This document shows, piece by piece, positions 34,665-63,901 of a stretch of DNA of 64,000 bases. Made by a program: the position numbers and the translations under genes. Source of the stretch: Nocardia sp. BSTN01 (GTDB taxonomy: Bacteria > Actinomycetota > Actinomycetes > Mycobacteriales > Mycobacteriaceae); the NCBI RefSeq assembly GCF_015354405.1, contig NZ_JADKYP010000025.1:24166-88165 (forward strand), given 5' to 3'. The stretch's first letter is position 1. Every line of letters begins with the position of its first letter. The notes under the pieces were generated by a model. The model was not told the origin of the DNA. It saw nothing but the letters and a program-made list of their open reading frames with translations, and did no database searches.

Positions 34665-34738
<74 letters not shown>

Positions 34739-34744
34739 CAGAAG

Positions 34745-34777: not shown

Positions 34778-34778
34778 G

Positions 34779-37968: not shown

Positions 37969-38162
37969 TGACGGCCCGACTCAGGCGGCGCAGGTCCGGC
38001 GGATCACGGCGATCACTGTCTACGACGAGGTGGTGTTCGCGTGACTCCCCAATGCGAGTGCCGCGACGTTTACGCATCGCGCGGCCTCGAGGGAGTGCTA
38101 GTGGTGCTCACACTCCGCAAAGCGCTGACATCACGCATCGCTAACCCTCGATCCACCCCGGG

Positions 38163-38775: not shown

Positions 38776-38811
38776 ATCCCACCTGGACTCGGCGTCCACA
38801 GTTCTTGACAA

Positions 38812-40225: not shown

Positions 40226-40501
40226 ATGTCCGACATCACTATTGACGGTGAGTTGCGTGCCGAGATTGCGGAGATTGTCGCCAGGATCCTGGAAGTGGAT
40301 GTCGCCGACGTAACGTGGGACGGCGACTTCCGTGACGAGCACGACGCGGATTCCTTGCAGGGCATCGAGATCCTGTCCGCCCTCGAGCGTGGCTTCGCCA
40401 TTACGATCGACCAGGAACGGCTGCCCGATATCGTTACCCTGTCGCGCACCTACGCCGTCGTCGCCGAGGCACAGCGGGCAGTGGGCGACAATGGATGCTA
40501 A
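40226..40501 (+). CDS. Acyl carrier protein of a type II PKS
   Basis: The protein has 91 aa from ATG 40226, with a GAGGAAGGTGG ribosome site. The phosphopantetheine site is DADSLQGIEIL with Ser43; the rest follows the four-helix ACP pattern (EIAEIVARILEV at the start, YAVVAEAQRAV at the end). It would carry the growing polyketide or acyl chain and hand it to the first condensation domain of the NRPS. It is the first gene of the operon and overlaps the ketosynthase start by 11 nt, so the two are translationally linked. Confidence 0.9.
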   Translation: MSDITIDGELRAEIAEIVARILEVDVADVTWDGDFRDEHDADSLQGIEILSALERGFAITIDQERLPDIVTLSRTYAVVAEAQRAVGDNGC

Positions 40502-41708
40502 ACGGCGTCGGGTCGCGATTACCGGTCTGGGCATCGTCAGCAGCATCGGTGTCGGCCCGGCCGAATTCTCCGATGCATTGCGCGCCGGACGATCGGTGGT
40601 GGGTCCGATAGCGGCGTTCCCCACCGACGGCTTCGATCACGCAAATGCCTGCGAGGTGCGCGATCACGATCCAGCCGATTCGATCACGACATTGAATCCC
40701 GAGACCATGGGGCGAGCCACCAGGTTCGCTGTCGCCTGTGCGAGACTGGCTCTGCACGACGCGGGACTCTCTCAGCAGTATGTCCGCGAGTTGCGCTCGT
40801 TGATCTCGGTAGGCACGACGAACGGGGAGAGCCGGGAAATCGAGGCGCAGGTTGAGCGCCAGGTCGCCAACGGGGTTACGGATGTCGATCCGTCGGCAGC
40901 GCGTCGAGCTCGTCCCGGGCGGCTGTCCGCAGATATCGCGAGGGAATTGGAACTCACCAGCACTGAGGCGGTCACGATTCCTACCGCGTGCGCGGCGGGC
41001 AACTACGCCATCGGAGCGGGGTTCGACGCCATTGCGAGTGGCGACGTGGATCTCGCGCTATGCGGCGGCGCGGACGCGCTGGTACGAAATACCTTCGTCG
41101 GATTCTACCGGCTGGGAACCATCGCTCCCGACCTGTGCCGGCCGTTCGACCGGGGGCGGCGCGGAATCCTGACCGGTGAGGGCGGCGCGGTCCTGGTCCT
41201 CGAACATCTGGACGCGGCCCTGGCCCGCGGTGCGCGCATTTACGCGGAGATCTTGGGATACGGATTGTCGTGTGACGCGAGTCATCCTGTGGCTCCGGAT
41301 CGAGACAGTGTGGCGCGGTGCATGACTCGTGCCCACGCCCAGGCCGGAATCAAGCCCGAGGAGGTGGATTTCATCTCCGCGCACGGCACTGGAACCAAGG
41401 CGAACGACCTGACCGAAGTCGCTGCCATCCATCAGGTTTTCGGCGCTGCGGCGCCGCCCACCGTATCGGTGAAGTCGATGCTCGGCCATGCCATGGGCGC
41501 TGCCAGCGCGCTCGCAGCGGCAGCCTGCGCGCTCGCGCTGCGAGAGGGCTTCATCCCTCCGACAATCAACTATCTCGAGGCTGACCCGGACATCGCTATC
41601 GACTGCGTTCCGAACCAGGCGCGCATCGCTGACGTCCGAATCGCCCAGAACAACGCGCTCGCTTTCGGTGGCAACAATGCCGTCCTCGTCCTCGGGAGGC
41701 ACGGGTGA
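40491..41708 (+). CDS. Beta-ketoacyl synthase (KSalpha, FabF-like), active type
   Basis: The protein has 405 aa from ATG 40491. The thiolase-fold catalytic set is complete: Cys167 in PTACAAGNY, His298 in SAHGTGTKAND, His333 in KSMLGHAMGAA with its Lys. The N terminus (RRVAITGLGIVSSIGVG) and C terminus (NNALAFGGNNAVLVLG) are FabF-like. It would catalyse decarboxylative condensation of malonyl-ACP onto the acyl chain. It is followed by a catalytically dead KS-like partner (GTGA overlap), the arrangement of type II PKS KS/CLF pairs. Confidence 0.93.
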   Translation: MDAKRRRVAITGLGIVSSIGVGPAEFSDALRAGRSVVGPIAAFPTDGFDHANACEVRDHDPADSITTLNPETMGRATRFAVACARLALHDAGLSQQYVRELRSLISVGTTNGESREIEAQVERQVANGVTDVDPSAARRARPGRLSADIARELELTSTEAVTIPTACAAGNYAIGAGFDAIASGDVDLALCGGADALVRNTFVGFYRLGTIAPDLCRPFDRGRRGILTGEGGAVLVLEHLDAALARGARIYAEILGYGLSCDASHPVAPDRDSVARCMTRAHAQAGIKPEEVDFISAHGTGTKANDLTEVAAIHQVFGAAAPPTVSVKSMLGHAMGAASALAAAACALALREGFIPPTINYLEADPDIAIDCVPNQARIADVRIAQNNALAFGGNNAVLVLGRHG

Positions 41709-42745
41709 AGACCATCATCACGGCGTGGGACGCGTTGTCCGCGTCGGGCCGTGGCCTCGATGACCATGTGGGCGCTCTGGGCGGCGATGTCACGGTCGGC
41801 GGTGGCGACGAGCCCCGGCTGGTCTCGGGCTTCGACATCGAGGTCGCGCTAGGTCGGCGCGGAACGCGTGCCATGGAGCGGTCCACCGGTCTCGCGGTCG
41901 AGACGACCGGTCGGCTGCTCGATCGGGTGGGACTCGGCCGGGAGAATCGGACCCCCGATGCCGACGATGAACTCGGAATCGTTCTGAGCGTTTGTGACGG
42001 TACGCAGGCGATCGTCGATTTCGCCAATGACACGTGGGTTTATGCCAAGCCCTATCAAGTGAACCCGGCGAAGATCCCGGCCAATTTGATGAACTTCCAT
42101 GCTGGGCAGTGTGCGATCTGGCATCGGCTGCGGGGACCGAATGCCACGGTGTGCGGCGGTCCCGCGGGCGGACTGCTCGCCCTCAACTACGCACGACGAC
42201 TGCAGCGCGGCGGGCACGCGCGGACTCTCCTCTGCGGCGCGGTCGAGGAGTACAGCGCGGCACGTGTGAAATATGAAGTAGCACAGAGCGTTACCTCAGA
42301 GCAGCGGGCTTTCGGGGAAGGTTGCGTGGTGTTCCTGGTGGAATCCGATAGGCCGAAGGGTGCTTCTCGAGAGCCACTGGCCGACCTGCTGGCCGTGGAA
42401 TTCGGTGCGTACACGAGGCTGGACACCATAGACACCGCGCTGTCCGAGTGTATTCGGCGGGCACTGCGGCGTACAGATGTGAAGGCCGACAAGGTCCGGG
42501 TGGTCGCACCTTCGCCGGGGGTCGGGCTGCGGGGACGGGCTGAATTGGCGGCGATCTCCGATGTGTTCGGTCGAATACGGCTCGCGACATCGGGTCTCGA
42601 TGCCCTAGGGGATACGGGAGCGGCAGCGGCCGGATTCCAAATTGTGGAATTGCTGATCGGTCCTGGCGAGCCGGGCCGGATTGCGATGGCGACGACGAGC
42701 GATGACGAAGGGCGGGTGGGATGCGCATTGTTGCGAATATGGTGA
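41705..42745 (+). CDS. KS-like chain length factor (KSbeta/CLF), lacking the catalytic Cys
   Basis: The protein has 346 aa from GTG 41705. It aligns with ketosynthases over its whole length but is shorter. At the nucleophile position, where active enzymes have TACAAG, it reads GGPAGG, so Cys is replaced (Pro by my alignment). The His of GHAMGAA is replaced in ALGDTGAAAAG. It should therefore form a heterodimer with the upstream KS and set chain length, as in type II PKSs and aryl-polyene or highly reducing systems. It overlaps the first dehydratase gene by 25 nt. Confidence 0.82.
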   Translation: MKTIITAWDALSASGRGLDDHVGALGGDVTVGGGDEPRLVSGFDIEVALGRRGTRAMERSTGLAVETTGRLLDRVGLGRENRTPDADDELGIVLSVCDGTQAIVDFANDTWVYAKPYQVNPAKIPANLMNFHAGQCAIWHRLRGPNATVCGGPAGGLLALNYARRLQRGGHARTLLCGAVEEYSAARVKYEVAQSVTSEQRAFGEGCVVFLVESDRPKGASREPLADLLAVEFGAYTRLDTIDTALSECIRRALRRTDVKADKVRVVAPSPGVGLRGRAELAAISDVFGRIRLATSGLDALGDTGAAAAGFQIVELLIGPGEPGRIAMATTSDDEGRVGCALLRIW

Positions 42746-43086
42746 CGCCATTCGAGTGGCGATTCACCGAAACGGGTCCTGCGGTGCTGACGACGGTGGT
42801 GAATCCCCGGTCGGCGATCTTTCTCGGTCATTTCCCAGGGCGGCCGGTGGTACCCGGCGTGTGCTTGATCGACTTGGTGGATCGAGCGGCCCGAGCCAGC
42901 GGCATAACCGCAGCAGCCGTATTGACCGGCGTTGTCTCGGCGAAGTTTGCCGACGCGGTGCTGCCCGCAGACGAACTGACGGTCTCGCTAACCCGCGACG
43001 GTTCGAACGTCACCGGTGCTGTGCACACCATACGCGGCGAAAACTGCCGCATCACATTGCGTTACGAGGAGCAGGCGTGGAATTGA
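42721..43086 (+). CDS. Hot-dog-fold dehydratase, FabZ-like (DH1)
   Basis: The protein has 121 aa from ATG 42721, inside the end of the CLF gene. It carries the FabZ central-helix signature GHFPGRPVVPGVCLID. His is present; the residue 14 positions later, Glu in FabZ, is Asp. The hot-dog strands continue in KFADAVLPADELTVSLTRDG. It would dehydrate 3-hydroxyacyl-ACP to the trans-enoyl-ACP. The second dehydratase has the complementary Glu but an altered helix, so the two may work as a heterodimer. Confidence 0.8.
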   Translation: MRIVANMVTPFEWRFTETGPAVLTTVVNPRSAIFLGHFPGRPVVPGVCLIDLVDRAARASGITAAAVLTGVVSAKFADAVLPADELTVSLTRDGSNVTGAVHTIRGENCRITLRYEEQAWN

Positions 43087-43484
43087 CCAGTGTGCTCCCG
43101 CATCGCTGGCCGGTCCTGCTGCTCGATCGTGTCGCCGATGTCGAGCCGGGTGTCAGCCTTAGCGGCTTTCTGACTATTCGTGCTGACCAGCCCTGGTATG
43201 CCGACCATTTCCCGCCGTATCTGGTGTTGGAATCCTGGCTGCAGGCTGCGGCGGTGCTGGGGCGCTGGAAGGTACCTCACCACGACATTCCGGTGCTGGT
43301 CGGTCGCGTGCGCGGGGTCAGGTTTCTGCGACGAGCCTTCACTGAGGAGACGGTGCACCATCGGGTGCGGATCGTGAAAACTGCTGCGGGCCTGTCTATT
43401 TGCTCTGGCATCAGCACTATCGCGGAGTCGGCGGTGCTCGAGGTCGATCAGGTGACGGTCAGTTTCGGCGGGGGTATCAGATGA
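43077..43484 (+). CDS. Hot-dog-fold dehydratase, FabZ-like (DH2) with shortened active-site loop
   Basis: The protein has 135 aa from GTG 43077, overlapping DH1 by 10 nt. It begins with the FabZ-like VLPHRWPVLLLDRVADVEPG and has YADHFPPYLVLESWLQAAAVLGRW: the His of HFP and a Glu in LES are kept, but the usual G-x-P-x-x-P-G turn is missing, so the His-Glu distance is 8 instead of 14. Its stop overlaps the ketoreductase ATG (ATGA). Paired, non-identical dehydratases are known from aryl-polyene and ishigamide-type clusters; a heterodimer is inferred here. Confidence 0.78.
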   Translation: MELTSVLPHRWPVLLLDRVADVEPGVSLSGFLTIRADQPWYADHFPPYLVLESWLQAAAVLGRWKVPHHDIPVLVGRVRGVRFLRRAFTEETVHHRVRIVKTAAGLSICSGISTIAESAVLEVDQVTVSFGGGIR

Positions 43485-44129
43485 GTGAATCTCGGCCGGT
43501 GGCGCTGGTCTCGGGCGGCTCCCCCGGCATCGGGCGTGCCGTGGTGTTGAAGTTGGCCGAGAACGGCTACGACGTGAGCTTCTGCTATCAGGCCGAAGCC
43601 GAGGCCGCAGGATTGTGAGAAGGATTCGGTCCGATCGACGCTGTCGTCACCTCGGCCGGGATCACTCGAGACGGTATGACTGTAATGCTCCCCGGCGACG
43701 ACTGGCAGGCCGTGCTACGCACTAACCTGGACGGCACCTTTCACATCTGCCGGTCCGCAGTCTTCGGAATGATCAAGCGTCGGCGGGGTGCGGTCGTGAC
43801 GCTCTCGTCGATTTCGAGAATCAGCGGAAACCCGGGGCAGCCCAACTATTCCGCGGCGAAGGCGGGCATCTGCGGCTTCACCAAGGCGCTGGCGCGGGAA
43901 GTTGGCCGCTACGGTGTGCGGGCGAACACCGTCGCACCGGGTTTCATCGACACTGAAATGACACGGGCCGTGCCCGATGAGGTGTTGCTGCGAGCCGTGG
44001 AACGCACCGCCCTTGCCCGCCTCGGACGGGCCGAGGAGGTGGCCGACCTCGTCGGCTTCTTGGTGTCCGAGCGCGCGTCGTTCATAACCCGGCCAGATCA
44101 TTGGAATCGATGGCGGACTGATCCTCTGA
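43481..44129 (+). pseudogene. 3-ketoacyl-ACP reductase (FabG-like), disrupted
   Basis: ATG 43481 begins SRPVALVSGGSPGIGRAVVLKL, a Rossmann TGxxxGIG variant with Pro where Arg is usual. After 45 codons an in-frame TGA (43616-43618) follows AEAEAAGL. The same frame then resumes at GFGPIDAVVTSAGITRDGM, so about 35 codons of the usual protein are missing. The catalytic Ser-Tyr-Lys remain (TLSSISR, NYSAAKAG). Near the end one extra C at 44088-44090 shifts the frame; in the shifted frame the expected IIGIDGGLIL end and TGA (44127-44129) appear. Two independent lesions point to real inactivation. Confidence 0.85.
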
Positions 44130-44149
44130 TGACTTCGTGAAATCAGCTC

Positions 44150-44168
44150 TACGATAGGAACTTTCGTA
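44150..44168. promoter_or_regulatory. Inverted repeat just before TetR gene
   Basis: TACGA (44150-44154) and TCGTA (44164-44168) flank a 9-bp centre, ending at the base before the ATG of the TetR gene. It could be an autoregulatory operator, but it also includes the ribosome-site region. Confidence 0.35.
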
Positions 44169-44750
44169 ATGCGGGAGTCGATCGTCAGCAGAACCACCCG
44201 GACTGCCGGGATGTCGAGCAGACGCATGACAGGACTACAGCGGCGGGAGCACATACGCGACATCGCCCGTGATGTTTTCGCGGAGTTCGGGTATTCGGCA
44301 ACGAGCACCGACATGATCGCTCGTGGGGCGGACGTCTCCCAGGCCTACGTGATTCGGCTGTTCGGTAGCAAGCGTCAACTGTTCCTCATGGGCTTGGAAC
44401 AGGCCTGGGACGGATTGGAGGCCATTGTTCGTGGCGCCTGGTTGCGAACAAATCCTCCTGCAGAGACACGGGATTGTCGTGCGGCACTGCTGGAGGATCC
44501 CATCCTGCCGATGCTGATCCAAGGATTCGCGGAGAGCGCGGATCCCGTTATCGGCGCGAGCATGCGCGACCGCTGCGGGGACCTGTACCGGCTGCTGCTT
44601 TCACATCCGCGGGCGTCGGCGGCCGAGGCTCGCCGGTTTCTGGCCGAGTGCGCCCTGATGGGGGCGTTGGTGGCGATCCGGGACACCGGGGCCGATGACG
44701 AACCCGCGCCGGGGCTCAGGGAACTGTTTGCGGCCTTCGGAATTAACTAG
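44169..44750 (+). CDS. TetR-family regulator within the biosynthetic operon
   Basis: The protein has 193 aa from ATG 44169; internal ATGs at 44211 and 44226 are possible. The DNA-binding part is typical: [51 protein letters not shown]. The C-terminal ligand domain is unlike characterised subfamilies. It sits between the broken ketoreductase and the NRPS (20-nt gap), so it is probably the pathway-specific regulator or controls export of the product. A small inverted repeat precedes it. Confidence 0.82.
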
Positions 44751-44770
44751 CTTCGAGGATTGGACCAATA

Positions 44771-47700
44771 ATGCAGCGTGATCGAACCCGGCTTGAACTG
44801 ACTGCGGCTCAGCGCGAACTGCTGCTCGCCGAGGACCTCGACCGCGGTCTGGTTGGCAATCAATTCGGGTACATCGACCTGCATGCCGAGATCGATCCCG
44901 GAGTACTGTTCGATGCCATGCGCCACGTGTGGCGGGAGTCACGGACGCTTCGTGTGAATGTGGTGCGTGAGGGTGGCCGGGCGTGGCTGGTGGAGCGTGA
45001 CCGCGACGAGTTGTCCATCGGATTCCACGATCTTGGCGGCAACGACGATGCCGAGTATGCCGCGGACAGATTCATGGCGACCGAGTCCGAGGTGGCTTTC
45101 GATCCCGAACACGATCGGCTGCTGCGGGCACATCTTCTGCGGCTCGACGCGGGTCACTACTATCTCTATGTCACGTTCCACCACCTGATCATGGACGGAG
45201 TCAGTGTCCTGATCTGGGTGCAGCGCGTACTCGACGTCTATGCCGCCCTGGTGTCGGGTTCGAGTATCGAGCCCGCGGTGTTCGCCGGTCAGCAGGAAGT
45301 CCTCGAACACGAGCACGGTTTCCACGCCGCCGCACGAAGAGCAGCGCAGGAGTATTGGGCGGCGCTGCTGCCCCCGGACGTGGAGCCGCTCGCGCTGCCT
45401 GGAAGCGGGAACCCGGCACAGGCCGAATCCTGCCTCTCCCGCGGGGCCGCGATCCCGGCTCACATCCTCGACCAGCTAGCGAAGGCGGGGGCCGCCGAAC
45501 GACTGGCGCTTCCGTGTCTGCTGATCGCGGTGGGAGCCGCGCTCTCGTGGTCGCTCACTGGACGTGGTCAGTTCTGCCTCCAGGTCCCGGTCTCGAATCG
45601 TCGTGGGGCCATTAAGAATACGCCCTGCCTGCTGGCCGACTCGATCCCGGTACCGATCGAAATGAATTTCGGTGACTCTCTCCTCGCCGTCGCCGCGCAG
45701 GTACAGCACCACCTCGGCGCCGCCCGCCGCCATTCTCGGTACGGTCTGGTGAATATTCGCCGCGACCTGGACCTCGCGGACAGTGGGCGAAACCCCTTCG
45801 GCCCATCGGTCAATGTGATCTCCTATCCCGACACCATGCTCCCGTCCGCCGAAGCCGCGGCCCCCCACATCGGCTCCACTGGGATCGCGGGTGACCTGTC
45901 GATCTTCTTCCAGTTTCCCGCGGGCTTATCGTCGGACGGATTCGTGACTATCGAGGCCAGCTCTCGCTTCTACTCCGACGCCGATCTCGAACTCTTCGTG
46001 AGAACGCTCGTCGCGTATCTCGATCGCGCAGTACTGGATCCGTCCGCGCCGGTCGGATCGGTACAGCTGCTCGATGCCGGTGAGCGCGCCCGAATCCTGA
46101 GCTGGAGCGGCGTGGCGTTAGAGGTCCCAGCCGACGCCACGACGGTTGTCGACATGCTCGAACGGCAAGTCGAGGCCGCCCCCGGCGCAATCGCCCTTGT
46201 GTCGGGGACGGAACAACTTTCGTATCGCGAGCTGCACGCGCGGGCGAATCAGCTGGCTCGTGTGCTCATCGAACACGGCGTCGGCCCGGAATCGATTGTG
46301 GCCGTCGTATTGCCGCGGTCGATGGAGTTGATCGTCGCCCTGCTTGCGGTGTGGAAGGCCGGCGGGGCGTACCTGCCCGTGGACCCGGCCTATCCGCGTG
46401 AACGGCTCGATCACATTCTGACCCCTGCCCGTCCTGCACTGGTCATCGCCAATGGCGAGCAGGCTGCCGCGATCCCGCGCCTCGCAGGGGACACGGCGCC
46501 GCCCGTCCTGGCCATCGATGCCGATGGCACCGCTGTCACGATTGCGGCACAAAGAGATTCGAAGATTGCCGAAACTGAGCGCCGAAATCCGCTATGGCCT
46601 TCGCATCCCGCCTACGTCATCTATACCTCGGGCTCGACCGGGACGCCGAAGGGCGTCGTCGTCACCCACCGCAATGTCCGGGCCTTGTTCTCCGCCACCG
46701 CCGACCGATGCGGATTCACACGCGATGACGTGTGGGCCTGGTGCCATTCACAGGCGTTCGACTTCTCGGTGTGGGAGATCTGGGGTGCACTGGCGCACGG
46801 CAGCCGGCTGGTGGTGATTTCAAGCGAGATCGTCCGGTCACCCCGGGCCCTCTGGCGAGAGCTCATAGCGACGGGGGTCACGATCCTGAACCAGACGCCG
46901 TCGGCGTTCTACGGACTGATCGCCGAGTTGCCGTCCGTCGAGGCGGAGGCGCGGTTGCGCATGGTTGTCTTCGGCGGTGAGGCGCTCGACCCGGAAAGGC
47001 TCACGGAATGGCATGCCTATCGGGCGGATTCCGCGGCTCCTGTGCTGATCAACATGTATGGCATCACCGAGACGACCGTGCATGTCACCCACCTCGAACT
47101 CGCCGCCGAGCATTCGCAGTCGAATGCCAGCCCGATCGGCGTTCCCTTGTCGAGCCTGCGGGCCTATGTAATGGACGGCTGGTTGCGTCCGGTGCCGGTA
47201 GGCGTATCTGGCGAACTGTATGTGGCCGGTACTCAATTGGCCCGCGGGTACCTGGGGCGTGCAGGTTTGACGGCCTCCCGATTTGTCGCGGATCCGTTCG
47301 ACCTGGCGGGTGGCGGTCGGCTGTATCGCACCGGTGACGTCGTACGTTGGACCGCGGACGGCCGACTGGAGTATGTGGGCCGTAGCGATGACCAGGTGAA
47401 AATTCGAGGCTTCCGGATCGAACCCGGCGAGGTCACCTCGGTGCTCGAAGCGCATCCAGCGGTATCGCGTGCGGTGGTGGTCGCTCGAGGGAGCTCGACG
47501 GGTGGCGGAAGACAGCTGATCGGATACGTGACGACGGACGAATCGGTGCGGGGGAGAGGCGGCAACGGGGAGACCGAGCTTTTCGACCAGTGGCAGCGCG
47601 TCTACAAAGAGTCGTATTCGGGTCCTTCATCTTTCGAGTCCGATGCCGACTTCACCGGGTGGAACAGCAGCTACACCGGGCAGCCCATTCCGCTCGCGGA

Positions 47701-50700
47701 GATGCGGGATGCGGCGGGCGCGCATATCCGAGAGCTCGACCCGCGCCGGGTGCTCGAGGCGGACATCGGATCGCTCGCGATCGAGTTGCGACGTCACGTT
47801 GCCGACCGGCTGCCCGCGTTCATGGTGCCGGCTGCGGTGGTCGTTGTCGACCGATTCCCGTTGACGCCGAACGGGAAACTCGACAGGGACGCATTGCCGG
47901 ATCCGCAATTCCATGCGACTGCGCTCTATCGCGCTCCCGGTACCCGCGCCGAGGCGTTGCTGTCGGCGCTGTTCGCGGACGTGCTGGGTGTGGACCGCGT
48001 TGGCATCGACGACTCGTTCTTCGATTTGAGCGGCCATTCGCTACTGGCTACGCGCTTGGTGAGCAAGATCCGGTCGGAGTTGGGCGTCGAGATTCCGGTG
48101 CGCGCGGTCTTCGACCGCCCCACTGTCGCCGAGTTGGCGACCCAACTGTCCGACAGCGGCGGTGGTCGCGTTCCACTGGTCAGGACCGAACAGCGGCCAC
48201 TCCAGGTGCCATTGTCGTACGCTCAGGGACGGCTGTGGTTCATCCACCGGCTCGAGGGGCCATCGGCGACCTACAACATGCCGCTGGTACTGCGGCTGTC
48301 CGAGGATGTGGACGCGGCGGCAATGACTTCCGCGATCGGTGATCTCCTTGCTAGGCACGAGAGCTTGCGCACCGTGTTCACCGAAACCGACGGTATTGCC
48401 GCACAGCGGGTACTGGATGTGGACGCCTTCGCGCTGCCTGTGTCGGTAGCCGCGATCTACGACGACGCCGTCGATGACGCGGTGTCGGAGGCGGTCCGGT
48501 ATCCATTCGATCTGGCGGCCGAATTCCCGGTGCATGTACGCCTTCTACGCTGCCGGGACGTCGTGACCTCGGTGGTCGAGGGGCATGTGCTGGTCCTGGT
48601 GCTGCATCACATCGCGGGTGACGGATGGTCGCTCGCGCCCTTGCTGCGGGACCTCGGGGCCGCATATCGGGCCCGCCGCGCCGGATACGCGCCTACCTGG
48701 CGGCCGCTGCCGGTGCAGTACGTCGACTACACCCTGTGGCAGCGCGACCTGCTGGGGGACCCGGCAGATTCCGACAGCGTCATCGCCACCCAATTCGCTT
48801 ACTGGCGTGCGGAACTGGCCGGACTCCCGGATGTGATTCGGCTGCCCGCAGATCGGCCTCGCCCGCGGATCGCCTCCTATCGCGGCGATGCGATCGAGCT
48901 CGTTATCGATGCCGGGTTGCGGCGGAGGATCGAGGACCTCGCGGCGGCGACAGGTGCGACACCATCTATGGTGCTACAGGCGGCGCTGACGGTCCTGTTG
49001 TTCAAACTCGGTGCTGGCGAGGATATTTCGATCGGTTCACCGATCGCGGGCCGGACGGACGAGGCCCTCGACGAGCTGGTCGGGTTCTTCATCAATACCT
49101 GGGTATTGCGGACCGCTGTGAAGCCGACGGCATCGTTTTCCGACATCGTGTGGCAGGTTCGGGACAAGGCCCTGGAAGCGTACACGAACCAGGATCTTCC
49201 CTTCGAGCTCTTGGTCGAACTGCTGAACCCGGTCCGATCGCCGGCGCATCATCCGCTGTTTCAGGTCGCGCTAGCTTTCCAGAATAACGGCTGGCCGACA
49301 TTGGATCTCGGTGGCGACCCTGTCACACCGCGCTTCGTATTGACCAGCACGTCCCGGTTCGACCTGTTCTTCAGCATTGCCGACGTGTCCGGTACGGCGG
49401 GCTGGATCGGGTTCGTTGAATACTCGACCGACTTGTTCGACCGCGGCACCGTTGAGCAACTCGTGGAGCGGTTCGTGCGCCTGCTCTCGGCACTGACGGC
49501 CGCTCCTGACCGGCCAATCGGTGCCGCCGAAATCCTGAGCGATGGTGAGCGCGGCCGAATTCTCGAATTGTGGAGCGGGGCAGCGGAAGCCCACGCCGAA
49601 CCCGCTGCCGCCACTCTGACCGGACTGCTCGACAGGCAGGCCACCGTCACCCCCGACGTTGTCGCCTTGGTCTCGGGACCACGGGAATTGACCTACGATG
49701 AGCTGCATGCGAGCGCCAATCGGCTCGCGCGCGTGCTCATCGACTACGGGGTCGGTCCGGAAACTATTGTCGCCGTGGCCTTGCCCCGGTCGAGTGAACT
49801 GATCGTCGCGCTTCTGGCGGTGCTGAAGGCGGGTGGCGCGTATCTTCCGATCGATTGGGACTATCCGGCGGACCGGATCGGCTTCATCCTCACCGATTGC
49901 GCTCCGGTGCTGGTGATCACCGAGACCGCACCGGCCGGGCGGGTCGCTGAGCTGAGCCTCACCACGCCACCGCCGGTTCTCGTCCTCGACAACCCCGGGA
50001 CGATGATATCGGTCGCGCGGCGCGACAGCGAGCCGATCACCGATAGCGAACGCCGCCGCCCCCTCGAGCCACTGCATCCGGCCTACGTCATCTATACCTC
50101 CGGATCCACCGGCCGCCCAAAGGGCGTGGTGATCACGCAGCGGAATGTGGCGGCGGCGTTGGCCGAACTCGCCGCTAGAACCGGAATGACCAGCAGTGCC
50201 AGCGTACTCGCGAGCACATCGGTGGCGTTCGACGTCTCGGTGCTCGAGATCTTCACGGCCCTCGGCGTTGGAGCCCGGCTGGAGGTGGTCGACGACATTC
50301 TGGCGCTGATTGACCGCGGTGGCTGGACCGGCACCCTGCTCAGCACTGTTCCGTCCGCGTTCGTGGCATTGCTGGGCCGTGCGGATATACAGCTACGCTG
50401 CGAGACGATCGTTTTCATCGGCGAGGCATTGACCGACGCCCTTGTGGAGCGAATCGGAACCGAGTTGCCCGGTGTTCGCATCGTCAATGGCTACGGTCCG
50501 ACCGAGGCAACGGTCATAGTCACCGGTCAACCCATCGAACCCGGGATCACCGCCGTCTCGATCGGCGTTCCGCTCCCGGGTGTGCGGGCCTATGTGCTCG
50601 ACGGATGGTTGCGGCCGGTACCGGCTGGGGTCGCCGGTGAACTGTATGTGGCCGGGGAACAACTGGCCCGCGGCTATCTGGGGAGCGCCGGGTTGACGGC

Positions 50701-53700: not shown

Positions 53701-56700
53701 GGAAACGGGCGCGCTGAGATCGTTGACCGAGATACACACCGGCGGCGATCTGCTCGACCCGCTCGCCGCCCGCCGAACCACCTCGGCCAGGCCCGAGATC
53801 GGGATCCGGAATCTATACGGGCCGACGGAGGCGACCGTCGCCGTCACCTCGTTCGCGGTATCCGCGAATGACGACGGGCCGGTTCCCATCGGCGGTCCGA
53901 TGGCGGGCACACGGGTCTACGTGCTCGACGCTGGAATGCGGCCGGTCCCGGTGGGCATAGCCGGAGAACTATATGTAGCGGGCGGTCAATTGGCGCGCGG
54001 CTACCTGAGGCGGTCGGCACTGACCGCGACCAGATTCGTCGCAGATCCCTTCGACCGCGCCGGTGGCGGGCGGATGTACCGGACCGGCGATATGGTCAGG
54101 TGGAACACGGCGGGGTTCCTCGAATTCGTCGGCCGGGTAGACGACCAGGTGAAGATCCGAGGCTTCCGCATCGAACCGGGCGAGGTCGAGTCAGTTCTGG
54201 CGGCTCATCCTGGGGTCGGGCAGGCGATCGTGGTCGCCAGAGATGACAGGCTGATCGCGTATGTCACGCCGGCGCTGTCGAGATCGGGTGACCTCGACTC
54301 CCGTGACGTTCGGCGCTTCGTCGGCGCCCGACTCCCCGAGTTCATGGTTCCCGCCGCGGTCGTAGTCCTGGATCGATTCCCCGTGACGGCCAACGGAAAG
54401 ATCAATAAACGCGCGCTGCCCGAACCTCGATTCGTGTCGACTGCCGCCTACCGTGCACCGCGCGCAACCGCGGAGCAGGTGCTCGCGGATGTATTCGCCG
54501 ACGTGCTGGGCGTGGACCGGGTCGGTATCGACGACGACTTCTTCGAGGTCGGCGGCGACAGCATCCGCTCGATCCAGGTCGTATCGCGTGCGCGGATGGC
54601 CGGAGTGGTGCTCTCTCCGCGAGAAGTGTTCCAGCACCGCACGATTGCCTCGCTGGCCGCCCTAGCGGCAGACCGCCGCGACACCGGCCCTTCACTGGAC
54701 GAGTTGCCCGGAGGCGGCCTGGGCTGGGCGCCGTTGCTGCCGGTCGCCCGATGGGTCGGTCGGCACCAGGCCGGATTCGCGGCCTTCTCCCAGTCGTTGT
54801 TGCTGGATCTGCCCCGCGGAATCGACCGTGCCGCACTGGTGGCCACACTCACCGCGGTCGTCAATCACCATGACGGATTGCGCTCGCGTCTGGTTGAAGA
54901 CGACCGCGGGCAGGGCATAGAGATGCTGCCCCCGGGCACGGTGGACATCGAGGCATGCCTCAAGCGTGTCGAACTGGCCGATTCCGATGCGGCGGAGCGG
55001 ACGATCACGGTCGAGATCGATGCTGCGGCGCTGCGACTGCGCCCGCTCGATGGCGTCATGTTGCAATTCGTATGGTTCGACCGTGGACCGGACCAGCCCG
55101 GCCACCTGGGCTTCGTCGCCCACCACCTGGTGATCGACGGTGTGTCGTGGCGGATTCTGCTGCCGGATCTGATGGCCGCGTGGTCCGGGCTCCGCGCGGG
55201 GAACGACCCGGCGTTGCCTGCCGTTGGTACCTCCTTACGACGCTGGTCTCACGCAGTGCTCGCGGATGCCACCTCGAGCAGACGCGAATCCGAACTGGGA
55301 CAATGGCTATCGATTCTGGACTCGCCAGGCTCGGCATTGGGGGCACGCGTGCTGAACCCGGCCGTGGATGTGGTCGCTACCATCGACAGGATCGAAGTCG
55401 AGATCCCCGCCGTGGTTAGCGAGGCGGTACTGACCACGCTTCCAGCCCTCTTCCGCACTAGCGCCAATGACGGATTGCTGGCGGCCCTGGCCATATCCAT
55501 CGCGCAGTGGCGGCACGACCACAATGCCGCCATCGAGCCAATGCGGATCCAACTGGAAAGCCACGGCCGCGACGAGGACGCCGTCCCGGGCGCCGATCTC
55601 AGTCGTACGGTCGGCTGGTTCACCTCGGTCTTTCCCGTCCTGCTGGATGTCGGCGACCTGAATGTGAACGACGCGTGCGCGGGTGGCGCCGCGGCCGGGG
55701 TCCTGATCAAGCGGATCAAGGAGCAAGTGCGTGCCGTCCCGGACAGTGGGATCGGCTTCGGGCTGCTGCGGTACTTGAATCCAGATACAGCACCACTGCT
55801 GGGGCAATCGGCGGCTAGCGAGATCAGCTTCAATTATTTGGGCCGGTTCGCCGATCCCAGCGCGCGCACCGATGCCGAGGGTGGCGGCTGGACGCCGACT
55901 CCGGGCCGGTTTGGGGGCCCAGCGCTCGATCCGATGATGCCCGCGGTAGCGGCCCTGGACATCAATGCGATAGCTGTCGACACCGACCGGGGGCCGGAGC
56001 TACGCGCCGTCTTCGCGTTTCCGACCGGAGTACTCTCGCGGGAGACCGTGCGGCAGCTGGCTGATGGGTGGCGTACTGCGCTGGACGGGCTTGCCCGTTA
56101 CGTGGGCACCGTGGCAACCGGTGGGCTGACCCCGTCGGATCTGCCCCTGGTGCCATTGGATCAGGTGGGCATCGAAGCGCTCGAAACGCGTTATCGCGGC
56201 CTGGTCGACGTGTGGCCGGTGACGTCCATGCAGGCCGGGTTCTTGTTCCATTCCCAACTAGCCGAATCCGCATTCGATCCATATCAGATTCGGCTCACGA
56301 TGAGGATCGACTCCGCCGTGGACGCGGACCGGCTACGTCGGGCGGGACAAGCCCTGATGGAGCGATACCCCAGCCTGCGAACCGCGTATGTCGATGCCCC
56401 CCAAGGCAACCCGGTCGCAGTCGTCGTCGACGGTGTGGAGTTGCCCTGGCAGCTCCTCGATCTGAGTGAGCTACCGGATGCCGACGTGGCCGCCATTCTC
56501 GCCGAATTGGCGCAACGAGACCGCGAGACCCACTTCGATCTCGGCACCCCGCCGTTGCTGAGACTGGCCGTCGTCCGCACCGGACCCCGGCGCGCGCACA
56601 TCGCCCTGACGATTCATCACCTGGTATTCGACGGTTGGTCGCTGCCATTGATGATGCGGGATCTATTGCGGCTCTACGCCTTCGAGGGAGATCTCCGCGC

Positions 56701-59700
56701 TTTGCCACCCGTGCCGGACTATCGGGACTATCTGGTGTGGCTGTCACAGCGGGACCGTGTCGCCGCCGAGGAGGCATGGGACGCGGCACTGGCAGGGATA
56801 ACCGAACCTACGCTGCTAGAGCCCGTGCTGCGGGCCGCGGATCGTGATCGGCACGATACTCCGGGGATCGATCGGGTCGCCCTTCCGCTGCCCGACAGCG
56901 TCTCCCAGCAGCTAACCGCCTATGCGGCCGAGCTGCGCATCACAGTCAACACCGTCGTGCAATGCGCGTGGGCAATCCTGCTGGCCAAGCTCACAGGACA
57001 GCGTGATGTGGTTTTCGGTGCCACGATTTCTGGCCGCCCAGCCGATCTGAATGGCGCAGATTCGATGGTCGGGGTCTTCGTCAACACGATTCCCGTGAGG
57101 GTCGACCTGTCCGGGGACCGCGAGGTGACAGAGCTTCTGACCGCGTTGCAGAACGGCCAGGGCGCCCTGCTCGATCACCACCACTACGACCTGAGCGCAA
57201 TCCATCGGCGAACCGGACTGAATCCGCTGTTCGACACGGTGATTGTCTTCGAGTCGTATCCGGTCGACGACGTGGCGATCCGGACATCGGCGGAGAGCGG
57301 CGGCCTGGCTGTCATGGACTTCGAGGTCGAGGACGGCACCTCCTATCCGCTGGCCCTCATTGCGGCTGCGACACCCGATCTGCGACTCGTATTCCAGTAC
57401 GCGACTGATGTTTTCGACCGGGCATCGGTCTCCGATCTCGCCGATCGATTCGTCCGGGTCGTCGAACAACTGATTGCGGAGTCGGCGCCGACCGTGTCCT
57501 CGATCGAACTCCTCGATCAAGTGGAGCGACGACGGATCCTCGCGACATGGAACGACACAGCGGCGGACGTCGGTGCCAATCCGACCTTGGTGGACCTGTT
57601 CGCGCGACGGGTGGCCGAGCATCCGGAGGCACCAGCGGTCCGGTATGGCGGCCTCATGTGGACCTATCGTGAACTTGAGCTGCGGGCGAACCGCGTCGCC
57701 GGGGCGATCCTGGCGCACGGCGCCGGACCCGAGACGATCGTTGCCGTCATGATCCGGCGCTCGGCGGATCTGATTGCCGGGCTATTGGGGGTGCTGAAGG
57801 CCGGAAGCGCCTACGTGCCCATCGATCCGGCGTATCCGCCGGATCGAATTCGCTACATCCTTGCGAACGCGAATCCGACGTGCCTGCTGACAGATGACGC
57901 CGACTTCGCGGCGGGAAGCCTACCCGCGGGCCTGGATCTTCTGCGGATCGAGCGGGCGTACGAGGGTTTCGATGACGGCGGGCAGATGCCTGCTTGCACG
58001 GTGCACCCCGGCAACCTGGCATACGTGATCTATACCTCCGGCACGACCGGCGCGCCCAAGGGCGTCGCGATCACGCACTCGAGCGTGGCGAACGCGATGG
58101 TCGTGATGCGAGAGCTATACGGCGAGGATCGCTCTCCGCATGTGCTCGCCGGCACCTCGGTGTCGTTCGACGTGTCGGTCTTCGAGATCTTCGCGACCCT
58201 GTGCGCCGGCGGCACCGTGGACATCGTCCGGGATATCCTCGCACTTGCCGAACAGGATCGATGGCGCGGCGGCATGATTTGCGCGGTGCCCTCTGCGCTG
58301 GCGGCGATCATCGATCGGATCGGTGACCGGGTCGATACCGATACGATTGTCCTCGCGGGCGAGGTGCTCCCGAAGTCGTTGGCCGACAAGGTGAAGCAAG
58401 TGTGGCCGGGGACTCGACTGATCAACGGTTACGGTCCGACGGAGACCTTCTACGCCACCGCCCACGTCGTGGGTTCCACGCCGATCGCCGAGGGCGCGTC
58501 GGTGCCGATCGGTACGCCGCTTGGCAATACCCGGGTATACGTGCTCGATTCCGGGCTGCGCCCGGTGCCGCCGGGGGTTGTCGGTGAGCTGTACATCGGT
58601 GGCGCACACGTGGCGAGAGGATATGTGGGGCTTCCGGTTTCGACGGCTTCGCGATTCGTAGCCGATCCGTTCGCACACGTGCCGGGCGAACGCCTGTATC
58701 GCACCGGGGACCTGGTGCGCTGGTCGCCAGAAGGGATACTCGACTACGTCGGCCGGATCGACGAGCAGATCAAGGTTCGCGGACATCGGATCGAACCTGG
58801 GGAGGTCGAGGCGGCCATGAAACGGCACCCGATGGTGGAGCGGGCGGTCGTGTTCGCCCGGGAATCCGCCTCCGGTTTGCCGGACCTGGTCGGTTATGTG
58901 ACCGTGGCCGATCAGGATTCGGTGACGCCCGCCGAGTTGCGCCGGTTCGCCGACAACCGCTTGCCTTCTTTCATGGTTCCCACCGCGATCATGATTGTGG
59001 ACCGCTTCCCATTGACCGCCAACGGCAAACTCGACCGGCGCGCGTTGCCCGCGCCGACATACGACTCGGCGGTGGCCTACCGAGCCGCCGGTACCCGTGT
59101 CGAACAGGTCCTTGTAGATCTGTTCGCCGCCGTGCTGGGCGTCGACGACGTCGGCCTCGATCACGATTTCTTCGACTTGGGCGGGCATTCGCTGCTGGCG
59201 ACGCGTCTGGTGAGCCGCATCCGGATGGAACTGGGCGTCGAGGTCGAGATTCGACGGGTCTTCGAGTGCCGCACGCCCGCCGAGCTCGCGTCGCGCATCG
59301 GCGACGCAACCCGAGCCCGGTCGGCGCTGGCGGCCTACGAACGCTCTCGAGTGGTTCCGCTGTCATTCGCACAGCGGCGACTGTGGTTCATCCACCGCCT
59401 CGACGGGCCGTCGGCGACCTACAACCTGCCTATGGCGCTTCGGCTGTCCGGCGAGCTGGACCTCCCGGCGCTCGAGGCCGCACTCGGTGATGTGGTTGGT
59501 CGCCACGAGGTCCTGCGTACGGTATTCACAGAATTCGACGGCGTTCCGAGGCAGGTAGTGCGGGACCCAGACGAGGTGGACATACAGCTCTCGATCTATA
59601 CCGCGACCTCCGAGTCCGTTCTGGCGGAGCTGGTGACACGCGAGGCCGCCGCCACGTTCGACCTTGGTTCCGAGATCCCGGTGCGCGGTGCGGTGATCCA

Positions 59701-62700
59701 TAGCGCGGCCGGTGATCACGTCCTCGTCCTGGTGCTGCATCACATCGCCGGCGACGGTTGGTCCCTCGCGCCGTTGCTGCGGGACCTCGGCACGGCCTAC
59801 AGTGCGCGTCGAGCCGGATCGCCGCCGCAGTGGCGTCCGCTACCGGTGCAATATGCGGATTACACGCTGTGGCAGCACGAACTCCTGGGACAGCAGCCGG
59901 ATCCCGACAGTCTTCTCAGTCGGCAATTCGAATACTGGCGTGGGGAACTCGCCGGACTTCCCGACCGGCTGTCGCTGCCGGTCGACCGGCCGCACCCGCG
60001 CGTCGTGACCCATCGAGGCGATATCGTGGATTTCGAGGTTGCGCCCGAATTGCGTTCGCGGGTCGAAGAGCTCGCGCGCACGCTGGGTGCGACTACGGCG
60101 ATGGTCTTGCAATCGGGGTTCGCGGTCCTACTCAACACGATGGGGGGCGGCGAAGATATCGCGATCGGTTCGCCGATCGCCGGCCGTACCGATGCGGCGC
60201 TTGACGACCTGGTGGGGTTCTTCGTCAACACCTGGGTACTGCGAGCCGACCTTTCCGGACACCCGTCGTTCTCGACGATCGTGCATCGTGTTCGACGAAA
60301 AGCACTGGCTGCCTACGAGAATCAGGACGTTCCCTTCGAGCGACTCGTCGAACTGCTGAACCCGCCGCGGTCTGCCGACCACCATCCACTCTTCCAGGTG
60401 ATGTTCGCGTATCAGAACAATGAGTTGCCCGATCTCGATTTCGCCGGATCGAGGGCAGAGATCTACCCTGTGCACACCGCCACGGCCCGCGTCGACCTAC
60501 TGCTGAGCGTCGGCGAAGGACTTACCGCCGCAGGCGGTTTCACCGGAACCTTCGAATTCGCCGCCGACCTGTTCGACAGGGAAACTGTCCTATCGATCGC
60601 AGAGCGGTTCCTGCGGGTTCTCGAACAGGCCACCGCGGATCCGCAGGCGCCACTGGGACGGTGGGACGTGCTCGGTGCCGACGAGCGCCGGACGATGCTC
60701 GAGGTCGCGCACGGCACCGCGGTGGCGGTCCCGGGCACGGGTGTCGTGGAACTATTCGAACGGCAGGTGCAGTCCCGTCCGGGTGCTGCGGCGATCGTGT
60801 CCGATGAGGGCGAAACCTGGTCCTATGATCGGTTGAACAGGATTAGCAACCAGACCGCGAGGCTGCTGATCGCGCGAGGCGTCGGCCCCGAATCGATTGT
60901 CGGTGTGGCCGTGCGGCGTTCGCCTGCACACGTGGCTGCCGCGCTGGGTGTGCTGAAGGCGGGCGGAGCGTACCTGCCGATCGACCCGAACCATCCGGCG
61001 CAGCGCATCGCCTCGATACTCGCCGATTCCGCGCCTGCCGTTGTGGTGACCGACCGGGCGAGTGCGGCAGCATTACCGCCGGTGGTGGAGACCCTACTGA
61101 GCGAAGGGATTCTCGACGACGTCGCCGCTGTCGAGGATGCAGTGAATATCACCGCGGCCGAACGCCGAGGACCCGTGCGCCCGGAGAATCTCGCCTACGT
61201 CATCTACACTTCGGGATCAACTGGCCGGCCAAAGGGCGTACAGGTCACCCATCGCAACCTCGCGAACCTGGTGCACTGCGGGTGGCCCGGGGTCCCTGGC
61301 GAACGGGTTCTCGTGCACGCACAGCCGACATTTGATGCATCGGTCTACGAGCTCTGGCCTGCCCTCGCACATGGGCGAACCCTGGTCTTGCTCACGTCGA
61401 ATCTGCTGGACGTCATGGATCTTCGGAGTGTCGGACCCGGGATCGGCCCGGACTCCCTGGTGCTGACCACCTCGTTGTTTCGGGTACTGGTCGAGGATCC
61501 GCGTGCCGACGAGGTGTTTGCTGATGCCCGGGAGATCGTCGTCGCGGGCGAGCGGCTCGATCTTCACTCGGTGGCGGTCGCTGCGCGGCGATTCCCGGGC
61601 GCGGCGATCTTCAACGCCTACGGCCCGACCGAAGCTACCGTGTGCACCAGCCTCTTCGGAATATCCGTCGATGAGGACCGATCCGGCATCTCGGTACCGA
61701 TCGGCCGTCCGATCGGCAATATCAGTACCTACGTGCTGGATTCGGCTCTGCGGCCTGTGCCGGTCGGTGCGATCGGCGAGCTGTACATCGGCGGTGCACA
61801 GGTGGCTCGCGGGTACGCGGGACTGGCCGGGGTGACTGCTGCGCGGTTCGTGGCCGATCCGTTCGACGCCGTCGGCGGGGGCCGGTTGTACCGATCCGGC
61901 GACCTGGCGCGCTGGACTCGCGGCGGTGTGCTCGAGTACGTCGGGCGCGCCGATGAGCAGATCAAGGTTCGTGGCTATCGAGTCGAACCAGGCGAGGTCG
62001 AAGCCGTTCTTCTGGAACATTCGACGGTCGCGCACGCGGCAGTGATGGCGCACGAATCCGGCGGATCCACGCGATTGGTCTCGTATGTGGTCGGAGCCGA
62101 GGGGCATCCGCTCGACACGGGTGAGCTTCGGGCATTCCTGGGAGAACGACTGCCGGAGTTCATGGTTCCGGCGGCGATCGGTGTCGTGGAGCGTTTTCCA
62201 TTGACCGCCAACGGAAAACTCGATCGGCGAGCGTTGCCGGTTCCGGAGTTCGTCTCCGCGGTCGCCTATCGCGCGCCGCGGACTCCGGTAGAGCACACCT
62301 TGGCCGAGGCCTTCGCAGCCACGCTGTGCGTTGACCGCGTTGGTATCGATGACGACTTCTTCGAGCTCGGCGGGCATTCACTACTCGCCACCCGGTTGGT
62401 CAGCCGAATTCGGGCCGAGCTCGCGGTGAAGATCGGGATCCGATCGGTCTTTGACCATCCGTCGGTTGCTCGGCTGGCGACGCACCTCGACGAGGGCGGG
62501 GCTGTCGACCACTTCGCCAGCGTGTTAGCGCTGCGCCGAGCCGGAGGCAAGACTCCGCTGTGGTGCGTCCACCCGGCGGGCGGGCTCGGATGGACCTACC
62601 GGTCGCTCGCGGGGCGGCTGCCCGATCGCCCTATCTATGCCCTTCAGTCACAGGGATTCGATGGCGATCCGCTCGCCGAGTCCTTCCACGACATGGTCGA

Positions 62701-63274
62701 ATCCTATGCAGACAGCATTGTGGCGACCCAGCTCGAGGGCCCGTACCTGCTGCTGGGCTGGTCGTTCGGAGGCGTTGCAGCACACGCAATCGCCGGTGTG
62801 CTGTCGGCTCGAGGGCATGAGGTCGGTGTGCTAGCCATCCTGGATGGGATTCCACGCGAACATATCTCAGAGGAAGCTCTCGATCGGGAGAGGGCGGTCG
62901 ATGTGCTCGAGGCATGGCTCTCGCAGACTTACGGGGAGGACGGCGATGCACCCGACCTTTCGGAGGTGATCGGCCGGGGCATGGGCATTTTCATGAATAA
63001 TATTGCGCTGCTGGAGGATTGGCGAACTCCTGTGTTCGGGGGCGACGCGCTCGTATTCCGGTCTACCTTGGACGAGGACGGCTCGTCGAGGCGCATCGGC
63101 GACTATCCGCTCGGAGCGATGTGGAGCGACTTCGTCAGCGGCGAGATCGTGGAGATCGATATTGACTGCACCCACCAGGGGTTCGGTGAACCCGGTCCGC
63201 TCGGTGCCGTCGCCGAAAAGCTCGAGACCGTTCTGGATTCCGTTGATGAACTACTGAAGGATGGTGAGAAATGA
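44771..63274 (+). CDS. Five-module non-ribosomal peptide synthetase with terminal thioesterase
   Basis: The protein has 6167 aa from ATG 44771. Modules are C1-A1-T1 (C motif HHLIMDG about aa 137; T Ser1090), C2-A2-T2 (HHIAGDG 1279; Ser2215), C3-A3-T3-E3 (2398; Ser3264 in GGDSI; E with HHLVIDG and FNYLGRF), C4-A4-T4 (DCL-type C with HHLVFDG; Ser4807), C5-A5-T5-TE (Ser5870; TE triad Ser5998 in GWSFGG, Asp6025, His6135). All A domains have YTSGS/TTG-PKG and the A10 NGK. There is no loading module, so C1 should take an acyl chain from the ACP. Specificity codes by my alignment: A1 DFWNVGMVHK (Thr), A2 DVLSVIGVIK, A3 DAYFHGLVAK, A4 DVFCVAGYAK, A5 DAY-x-VAAVCK (aromatic-like). Product: acyl-Thr-x-D-x-x-x, probably released as a lactone. 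Confidence 0.95.
47540..47760 (+). other. Remnant of N-terminal part of a methyltransferase domain inside A1
   Basis: Between A8 and A9/A10 of A1, where N-methyltransferase domains are inserted, about 70 extra residues read [32 protein letters not shown] and ELDPRRVLE. This is how NRPS methyltransferase domains begin, up to the first strand of SAM motif I (VLEIGxGxG). The sequence then jumps into the A-domain tail ([18 protein letters not shown]). The SAM-binding core is gone, so it cannot methylate. Confidence 0.7.
50970..51147 (+). other. Probable remnant of C-terminal part of a methyltransferase domain inside A2
   Basis: A2 has about 55 extra residues at the same A8-A9 position, compared with A3, A4 and A5. 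The segment ends [22 protein letters not shown], similar to the last strand and linker of NRPS methyltransferase domains (T-x-V-Y-x-P ... Y-x-N-x-P before the A-domain tail). It looks like the complementary end to the A1 remnant. The match is weaker than for A1. Confidence 0.5.
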
Positions 63275-63617
63275 ACCCGTTTGATGACGACTTGGGCCAG
63301 TTCCTAGTACTGGTCAACGACGAGGGCGGTATTCACTGTGGCCCAGTTTCGCCGAGATTCCCCGGGGATGGTCCTCGGTATTCGGTGTTGCGAGCCGCGC
63401 CGACTTTCTGACGTTCATCGAGACCGAATGGACCGATATGCGTCCGAAGTCGCCGATCGCCGCGATGGAGCGGGACGGCTCGGACAGACCGCTACTCCCA
63501 ACGGTTAGTGGTCCGGCTTGTACGGGCCTTGTGAGCTTGCCGGCATGCCACTCAGCGCCGCGACGTGGATGCGGGCAACGTTTTCGGCCGGCACGCACGG
63601 CTGTACCTGATGCCTAG
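63271..63617 (+). pseudogene. MbtH-like protein, frameshifted
   Basis: ATG 63271 overlaps the NRPS stop (ATGA). Frame one reads [20 protein letters not shown], the MbtH start, then loses sense after IHC and stops at 63409-63411. From 63339 a second frame gives [41 protein letters not shown], the rest of MbtH with its conserved Trp residues. A loss of 1 (or 4) nt near 63337 explains it. MbtH proteins activate A domains, so the NRPS would need another copy from the genome. The tail after PLLPTVSG is not family sequence and includes a copy of the ahcY end. Confidence 0.85.
63506..63530 (+). repeat. Near-copy of the ahcY 3' end (left copy)
   Basis: Twenty-five bases matching 63912-63936 at 24 positions (TAGTG, one mismatch, TCCGGCTTGTACGGGCCTT). 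The right copy encodes the last residues of AhcY on the minus strand; this copy lies in the tail of the mbtH remnant. Confidence 0.85.
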
Positions 63618-63901
63618 ACAGTGACGGTCTTATTGGTCCTGGCAATCAGTCCTCGAATCAGGCTGGCCGGTCGACAAATGTAGACGACCGATGTCGTCGA
63701 ACTACATGCAGGTCAGGCGGTTTGAAGCACACTGATACAGAAAGGCCGAGCTCGAGCGAACACGAGGGTCCGCAACTGGGTCCGGAACAATCGATCGCGG
63801 GTTAGCGGGATTAACACGTTATCGGCTGACATGACTATCGATGCGACCGCAACCTTCATCCAGGGATCCGTACGAATCGTCAATTGCTACAGCGGAGTTC
63901 G
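63618..63901. other. 284-bp region between mbtH remnant and ahcY, no gene seen
   Basis: No protein-like frame. ATGTAG (63678-63683) and CTACAT (63702-63707) enclose a second inverted repeat ACGAC/GTCGT, giving a possible hairpin or operator. The segment is bounded on the left by the ahcY-like repeat and on the right by ahcY itself. Confidence 0.45.

Follow-up and report, generated by a model that had tools for sequence, protein, structure and literature searches.

Several cinnamoyl-containing peptides have threonine as their first residue and are closed as lactones, and ADEP and enopeptin carry a polyenoyl tail on a small depsipeptide. In ishigamide synthesis, a discrete set of acyl carrier protein (ACP), dehydratases (DH) and ketoreductase (KR) feeds a nonribosomal peptide synthetase (NRPS), and its ketosynthase (KS) and chain-length factor (CLF), Iga11-Iga12, are presumably the pair deposited as PDB 6kxd. 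A figure legend of PMC11446937 names ADEP/enopeptin as a reducing type II polyketide synthase (PKS) cluster, and skyllamycin, WS9326A and kitacinnamycin combine a type II PKS acyl tail with an NRPS that ends in a thioesterase (TE), as given in an excerpt of PMC6510318. Here we analyse an operon of this kind in a draft assembly of Nocardia sp. BSTN01 (GCF_015354405.1; 7.79 Mb, 206 contigs). The window, that is the whole stretch of 64,000 nucleotides, comprises bases 24166-88165 of the 88165-base contig NZ_JADKYP010000025.1, and its right end is the contig end. In a literature search, no paper was recognised as describing this Nocardia cluster.

The operon differs from each of these systems. Unlike the ishigamide locus, it has a five-module NRPS and a broken KR. 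The cinnamoyl peptides differ in that the window operon has five modules and a broken KR, and no isomerase or desaturase gene was seen among its genes. ADEP/enopeptin is likened to it by description, not by gene sequence, and the acylated residue in the window is predicted to be threonine. For the NRPS itself, an excerpt of PMC8097286 describes core swaps in adenylation (A) domains, exchanges of thiolation-epimerization-condensation (T-E-C) units and the natural deletion in mcyA, where the N-methyltransferase (MT) within an A domain was lost and the synthetase was kept (legend citing Fewer et al. 2008). There, one module was affected and the product was shown, whereas in the window two modules are affected at different cut points and the case is known from sequence alone. 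An earlier note on this DNA missed the two excised MT domains and the mosaic make-up of the NRPS. The natural removal of the two MT domains is the most interesting part of the locus.

Remnants of MT domains in A1 and A2

The NRPS was compared with those of Nocardia sp. CDC159 (G012), N. suismassiliense S-137 (G080) and N. ninae NBRC 108245 (G017). In N. suismassiliense and N. ninae, the first A domain contains a whole MT between the motifs A8 and A9 (Methyltransf_12, 3.7e-14; SAM motif LEIGVGSG). In the window, the alignment of A1 runs from the MT start to an altered SAM motif and then directly into the A9 side. The MT residues left amount to 69 in A1 and 53 in A2, compared with 357 in A1 of N. 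suismassiliense. An MT with a SAM motif between A8 and A9, as in a functional A-MT module, was found in neither domain. As in mcyA, most of the MT was lost in frame and the A motifs were retained on both sides.

The only PDB match of the A1 remnant was 5wmm (E 2e-10), which we take to be an A-MT-A protein. Against A1 of N. suismassiliense, the A1 remnant scored 207 and the C-terminal tail of the A2 remnant 106, and in both cases none of 500 shuffles scored as high. Against three MT-less A domains, neither piece rose above its shuffles, and the A2 tail showed no excess against the MT module of CDC159 (99/500 shuffles as high).

MT starts like that of A1 were found in 55 of 151 Nocardia genomes, the source genome included. 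The best loci, at most one per genome, were then read for the A9 motif. Among the 29 loci outside the window, A9 lay 295-346 residues past the MT start in 21, eight yielded no A9 motif and a short gap was seen in none; in the window the distance is 6 residues. The deletion is therefore unusual in that set. The predicted structure of A1 had a mean pLDDT of 66, and model residues 470-542, which cover the remnant, scored below 50 between better-scored parts, with other stretches also low. For A2, the confidence was low across the entire C-terminal part. Judged by the alignment, the PDB match and the shuffles, the embedded MT domains of A1 and A2 are excised in frame at different break points.

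Mosaic structure and conservation of the NRPS

The domain order is C-A-T-C-A-T-C-A-T-E-C-A-T-C-A-T-TE, which gives five modules with the E domain in module 3. A regular-expression scan found the core motifs throughout the five A, five C and five T domains, the E domain and the TE. The misses were variant spellings (the A1 motif of the domains A4 and A5, the lead-in of T4, the C5 motif of C1), and the serines of all T domains are present. The start with a C domain and the end in a TE that the earlier note had described were thus borne out in a single frame, and its five-module order with Thr1, a D-residue 3 and an aromatic-like residue 5 was supported by the motifs and the A codes. We take the code of A1, DFWNVGMVH, to be that for threonine. 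The predicted product is acyl-Thr-x-D-x-x-aromatic-like, released by the TE and without N-methylation by cis domains.

The A2 domain was nearest to A1 of N. suismassiliense in the N-flank, the C-flank and the A9-A10 part (bootstrap 0.93, 0.97 and 0.86). For the core at 49991-50530, the bootstrap for the same partner was 0.00, and the nearest domains were A4/A5 of N. suismassiliense (52%). It looks as if the substrate core of A2 was exchanged inside an A1-like module. The T3-E3-C4 unit was closest to the T-E-C units of CDC159. The window NRPS hence bears signs of a core swap, a T-E-C exchange and an MT deletion alike, the processes described in PMC8097286.

Conserved columns were tested with C domains restricted to those with an exact HHIAGDG (18 rows), and the near-copies N. 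suismassiliense and N. ninae were omitted together. The A domains of the window depart at 2-7 of 100 invariant columns and those of the relatives at 2-9 of 99-104. In the C domains, C2 is changed at 5/157, C5 at 9/157 and C3 at 13/157 columns (relatives 5-11 of 146-161), and in the T domains, T1 and T4 are each changed at 3/19 (relatives 0-2 of 14-15). On the whole the NRPS looks kept and gives no overall sign of relaxed selection, although C3, T1 and T4 lie near the top of the range. Within the A1 remnant, 7/25 columns invariant in the relatives are changed, compared with 0/34 and 1/13 in its flanks; with looser columns the numbers are 13/39 compared with 5/48 and 1/18.

The PKS and the starter C domain

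The best PDB match of the KS was 6kxd_A with 490 bits (next 334) and that of the CLF was 6kxd_B with 175 bits (next 42), which supports the polyene-type reducing type II PKS that had been proposed. The operon encodes a KS/CLF pair of the Iga11-12 type in which only the KS has the active Cys, along with the discrete ACP and dehydratases. An intact dedicated KR is lacking, though a fragment of that KR type remains. By its genes, the PKS is of the reducing type II, polyene kind. CLF relatives of at least 60% identity were found only in N. suismassiliense, CDC159 and N. ninae when 149 Nocardia genomes were searched. The best relative beyond the genus reached 50% (397 genomes of the order), and the plasmid relatives, 27 records, were all from Streptomyces and all below 60%.

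The PDB matches of C1 were led by ObiF1 (132 bits), the C1 domain of CDA synthetase (110) and 7c1k (108), all presumably starter C domains. With C2 as a control, other C domains were matched and these three were absent among its 39 PDB matches. In a tree built from 38 C and E domains, from which the N. ninae rows were omitted as near-copies, C1 of the window and of N. suismassiliense clustered with 17 C domains of the genus, apart from 18 later-acting C and E domains (support 100/100). The first C domain of CDC159 joined the C1 side on a long branch. Sixteen of the 17 are the first domain of their protein, and no stop was seen upstream of the remaining one. C1 also carries the HHxxxDG motif, as the starter C domain of a lipo-initiating NRPS does. 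The phylogeny that the earlier note had proposed as a check thus placed C1 among starter-type, first-in-protein C domains and not outside the acyl-accepting clades.

C1 is 71% identical in N. ninae and N. suismassiliense, and the rest of the matches listed from 151 Nocardia genomes have 35-39%. At E<=1e-90, the C1 type was found in the source genome only among 397 genomes of the order and 396 of the phylum; four candidates were scored per genome and the two known Nocardia positives were not recovered from these samples, so this says little. As a side observation, starter-type first C domains of 35-39% identity head NRPS frames of about 5000 residues in some 20 Nocardia genomes (L039-L055).

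Operon layout and related clusters

All genes lie on the + strand in the order ACP, KS, CLF, two dehydratases, KR pieces, TetR, NRPS and MbtH pieces (Table 1). The ACP, the active KS with its Cys-less partner, the two FabZ-like dehydratases and TetR, all read earlier from the letters, were confirmed by motifs and profile matches. Overlaps of a few bases join ACP/KS, KS/CLF, CLF/DH1, DH1/DH2, DH2/KR and NRPS/MbtH. The single strand that had been described is correct, but the overlap of all starts and stops was put slightly too strongly, as TetR is flanked by short gaps and does not overlap its neighbours.

Table 1. Features of the operon, with positions in the window (percentages refer to the relatives named in the text)
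Feature	Position	Strand	Evidence
ACP	40226..40501	+	DSL serine motif; PP-binding 4.7e-11; 55-66% to ACPs of three relatives
KS	40491..41708	+	active-site Cys in TACAAG; 74-77% to relatives
CLF	41705..42745	+	without active Cys; 61-63% to G080, G012 and G017 pieces
DH1, FabA/FabZ-like	42721..43086	+	HFPG motif; PF07977 5.8e-06; 60-67% to relatives
DH2, FabZ-like	43077..43484	+	DHFPP motif; 56-60% to relatives
Broken KR	43481..44138	+	pieces 43481-43615 and 43619-44089; stop 43616-43618; tail motif 44091-44117
TetR-family regulator	44169..44750	+	PF00440 9.2e-12; 42% to TetR near the N. ninae cluster
Five-module NRPS, 6167 aa	44771..63274	+	one open frame
C1, starter-type condensation domain	44786..46078	+	PDB matches, tree
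A1	46136..47920	+	code DFWNVGMVH (Thr); 69.5% to A1 of G080
MT remnant in A1	47573..47773	+	N-terminal part, ends at altered SAM motif
T1	47933..48115	+	motif
C2, LCL-like	48200..49543	+	motifs, PDB matches, tree
A2	49607..51295	+	code DVLSVIGVI; flanks like A1 of G080, core 49991-50530 like A4/A5 of G080
MT remnant in A2	50993..51157	+	short weak N-terminal bit and clear C-terminal tail; SAM motif absent
T2	51308..51490	+	80% to T1 of G080
C3-A3-T3	51551..54634	+	A3 code DAYFHGLVA
E3, epimerization domain	54689..56080	+	motifs; TIGR01720; groups with E domains of G012
C4, post-E condensation domain, DCL-like	56195..57520	+	tree
A4-T4	57575..59266	+	A4 code DVFCVAGYA
C5-A5-T5	59348..62455	+	A5 code DAYVVAAVC, aromatic-like
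TE	62468..63271	+	GWSFGG; PF00975 5.5e-24; 38% to TE of G080
Broken MbtH-like gene	63271..63467	+	pieces 63271-63324 and 63327-63467 in different frames

N. suismassiliense and N. ninae have the same PKS genes beside a seven-module NRPS, with the C1-A1-T1-C2 order and the Thr code in common with the window. The positional identity to N. suismassiliense is 71% for C1, 70% for A1, 73% for T1 and 73% for C2. Unlike the window, both have an intact MT in four modules, no E domain and two or three NRPS frames. CDC159 shares the ACP-KS-CLF-DH-DH-KR order (KR 77%) and has the T-E-C units nearest to T3-E3-C4. It differs in that its KR is intact, its six modules are divided between two NRPS, its C1 is of a different kind and the NRPS is followed by a Lys/Orn N-monooxygenase gene. 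Two side observations concern these relatives. In CDC159 (L028/L029), three A domains share the code DVFSVAAYA and two MT modules are Gly-coded, a candidate acylated trihydroxamate siderophore. In N. suismassiliense (L026/L027), the seven modules with four MT domains predict a highly N-methylated acyl-Thr heptapeptide.

Broken KR and MbtH genes

The first KR piece matches residues 1-43 (67%) and the second residues 81-235 (77%) of the intact 247-residue KR of CDC159, relative to which about 37 residues are missing. A TGA interrupts the frame, and the C-terminal motif lies in another frame. The two MbtH pieces are likewise in different frames. An intact FabG-like gene, an intact MbtH and with them the complete gene set, as read earlier, were therefore not found, since both genes are broken. 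The genome contains three other MbtH genes above the Pfam cut-off. In N. suismassiliense and N. ninae, a KR of the window type was not found in the region of up to 40 kb read in each; they have only a short-chain dehydrogenase (SDR) of 31-32% identity upstream of the ACP. The dedicated KR would therefore be replaceable.

Evaluation of the pathway

We consider it likely that a Nocardia line of acyl-Thr pentapeptides was shaped by MT loss, a core swap and the gain of an epimerase. ACP, KS-CLF and the two DHs, a PKS class given by the sequence, would build an acyl chain that is presumably unsaturated, and C1, a starter type by the same token, would join it to what is probably Thr on T1. The five modules would extend it to acyl-Thr-x-D-x-x-aromatic-like, and the TE would release the peptide, probably as a lactone on Thr. 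The NRPS ancestors would have N-methylated residues 1 and 2 until the MT domains of A1 and A2 were cut out; with these gone, the product is expected to carry no N-methyl group on the two residues. A2 would have acquired a replaced substrate core and T3-E3-C4 would come from another lineage. Since, in the available sequence, neither the KR nor the MbtH of the operon is intact, function would be expected only with a FabG-type KR and another MbtH both acting in trans; otherwise the line would be freshly silenced. As a tentative proposal, then, with two MTs cut, a core swapped, an epimerizing unit added and the 18.5-kb frame intact, a methylated lipopeptide line would have turned into one for a new unmethylated acyl-Thr pentapeptide with a D-residue, to which a KR and an MbtH would be provided in trans.

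If the pathway is active, it offers two natural pairs of break points for removing an MT from an actinobacterial A domain. It would also combine MT cuts, a core swap and a T-E-C exchange within one protein, with methylated relatives for comparison. The line further puts to the test whether a KR from elsewhere can sustain a reducing type II PKS.

Several observations weigh against this reading. The main reason to doubt production is the broken KR, because the knock-out of the KR gene kcn14 abolished all kitacinnamycin products (PMC6510318, excerpt). The source genome has many SDR genes, of which the nearest to the window KR has 45% identity. Only the A1 code (Thr) and, loosely, the A5 code (aromatic) are readable among the five. 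C3, T1 and T4 depart from the invariant columns more than their counterparts in the relatives. Neither MT remnant gave a Pfam match even at E 0.1, and because Pfam is blind to them, the remnants rest on the alignment to the relatives, the PDB match and the shuffles; in the A2 remnant, the short N-terminal part gives a weak signal (17/500 shuffles as high). In the A2 remnant, 4/11 invariant columns are changed compared with 3/34 and 1/13 in the flanks, which is thin, and the looser columns show no excess (5/23 compared with 9/48 and 3/18). The intact MT of CDC159 changes equally (54/157 columns). At most, the surplus of changes in the remnants hints at older deletions in an NRPS that has been kept. 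Remnant drift as proof of selection on the NRPS after the deletions was rejected, as it was seen in A1 only and the intact MT of CDC159 changes as much.

The locus could quite possibly be a dying cluster without a product, with KR and MbtH as pseudogenes, much decayed mobile DNA in the island and an NRPS that is still open for no other reason than a recent loss. The several lesions of the KR, the split MbtH and the essential role of the KR in the excerpt on kitacinnamycin fit this, as do the integrase, resolvase and transposase genes with few intact genes at 31.6-40.2 kb, the G+C of 0.650 compared with 0.689 in the left contig part, and C3, T1 and T4 with the highest shares of altered invariant columns. 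On the other side stand the 18.5 kb of NRPS without a stop or frameshift, the A domains, C2 and C5 that are conserved as in the relatives, the MbtH copies elsewhere in the genome and the 31-32% SDR of N. suismassiliense and N. ninae, by which the KR is replaceable. If silent, the cluster would time the decay of such a pathway, in which the helper genes go first and the giant NRPS last.

That the lesions are sequencing or assembly faults in a complete operon is unlikely. The assembly is a draft of 206 contigs and both lesions include frame changes, but the adjacent NRPS is open over its whole length, 21 long open frames occupy most of the first 31.6 kb (by the open-frame list only), and the residues missing from the KR are unexplained by base-calling errors.

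We regard a cinnamoyl-containing peptide of the skyllamycin, WS9326A and kitacinnamycin type, with the polyene cyclised to an aryl group, as improbable. The logic of a type II KS-CLF-DH-ACP set with a starter C domain and a TE is the same, but the excerpt of PMC6510318 gives an isomerase and intact KS, KR, DH and ACP as marks of such clusters, and the window KR is broken. Among the operon genes there was no isomerase or desaturase candidate, with no search by an isomerase sequence made.

Ordinary linker variation in place of MT remnants is hardly credible and, for the A1 insert and the A2 tail, is refuted as far as sequence allows, because despite the silence of Pfam and the weak A2 bit both exceed all 500 shuffles against the N. 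suismassiliense MT module and not against MT-less modules, and the 5wmm match and the alignment to the relatives agree with this.

Genomic setting

Left of the operon, at 34665-39753, a tRNA-Pro(GGG) precedes genes for a phage-type integrase and a resolvase as well as a transposase-like gene. The G+C content falls from 0.689 in the left part of the contig to 0.63-0.65. The region appears as an acquired island whose right end would lie beyond the contig. About 43 nt of the 3' half of the tRNA-Pro recur without a tRNA on another contig of the genome (C174, near 221590), beside low-G+C DNA. Together, the two copies look like a candidate pair of island attachment sites.

At the right end of the window (63506-64000), two pieces of an ahcY 3'-end were found, and a direct repeat of 25 nt has its copies at 63506 and 63913. 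The same genome has a long ahcY frame on contig C19, with 80-91% identity to the ahcY pieces in the window.

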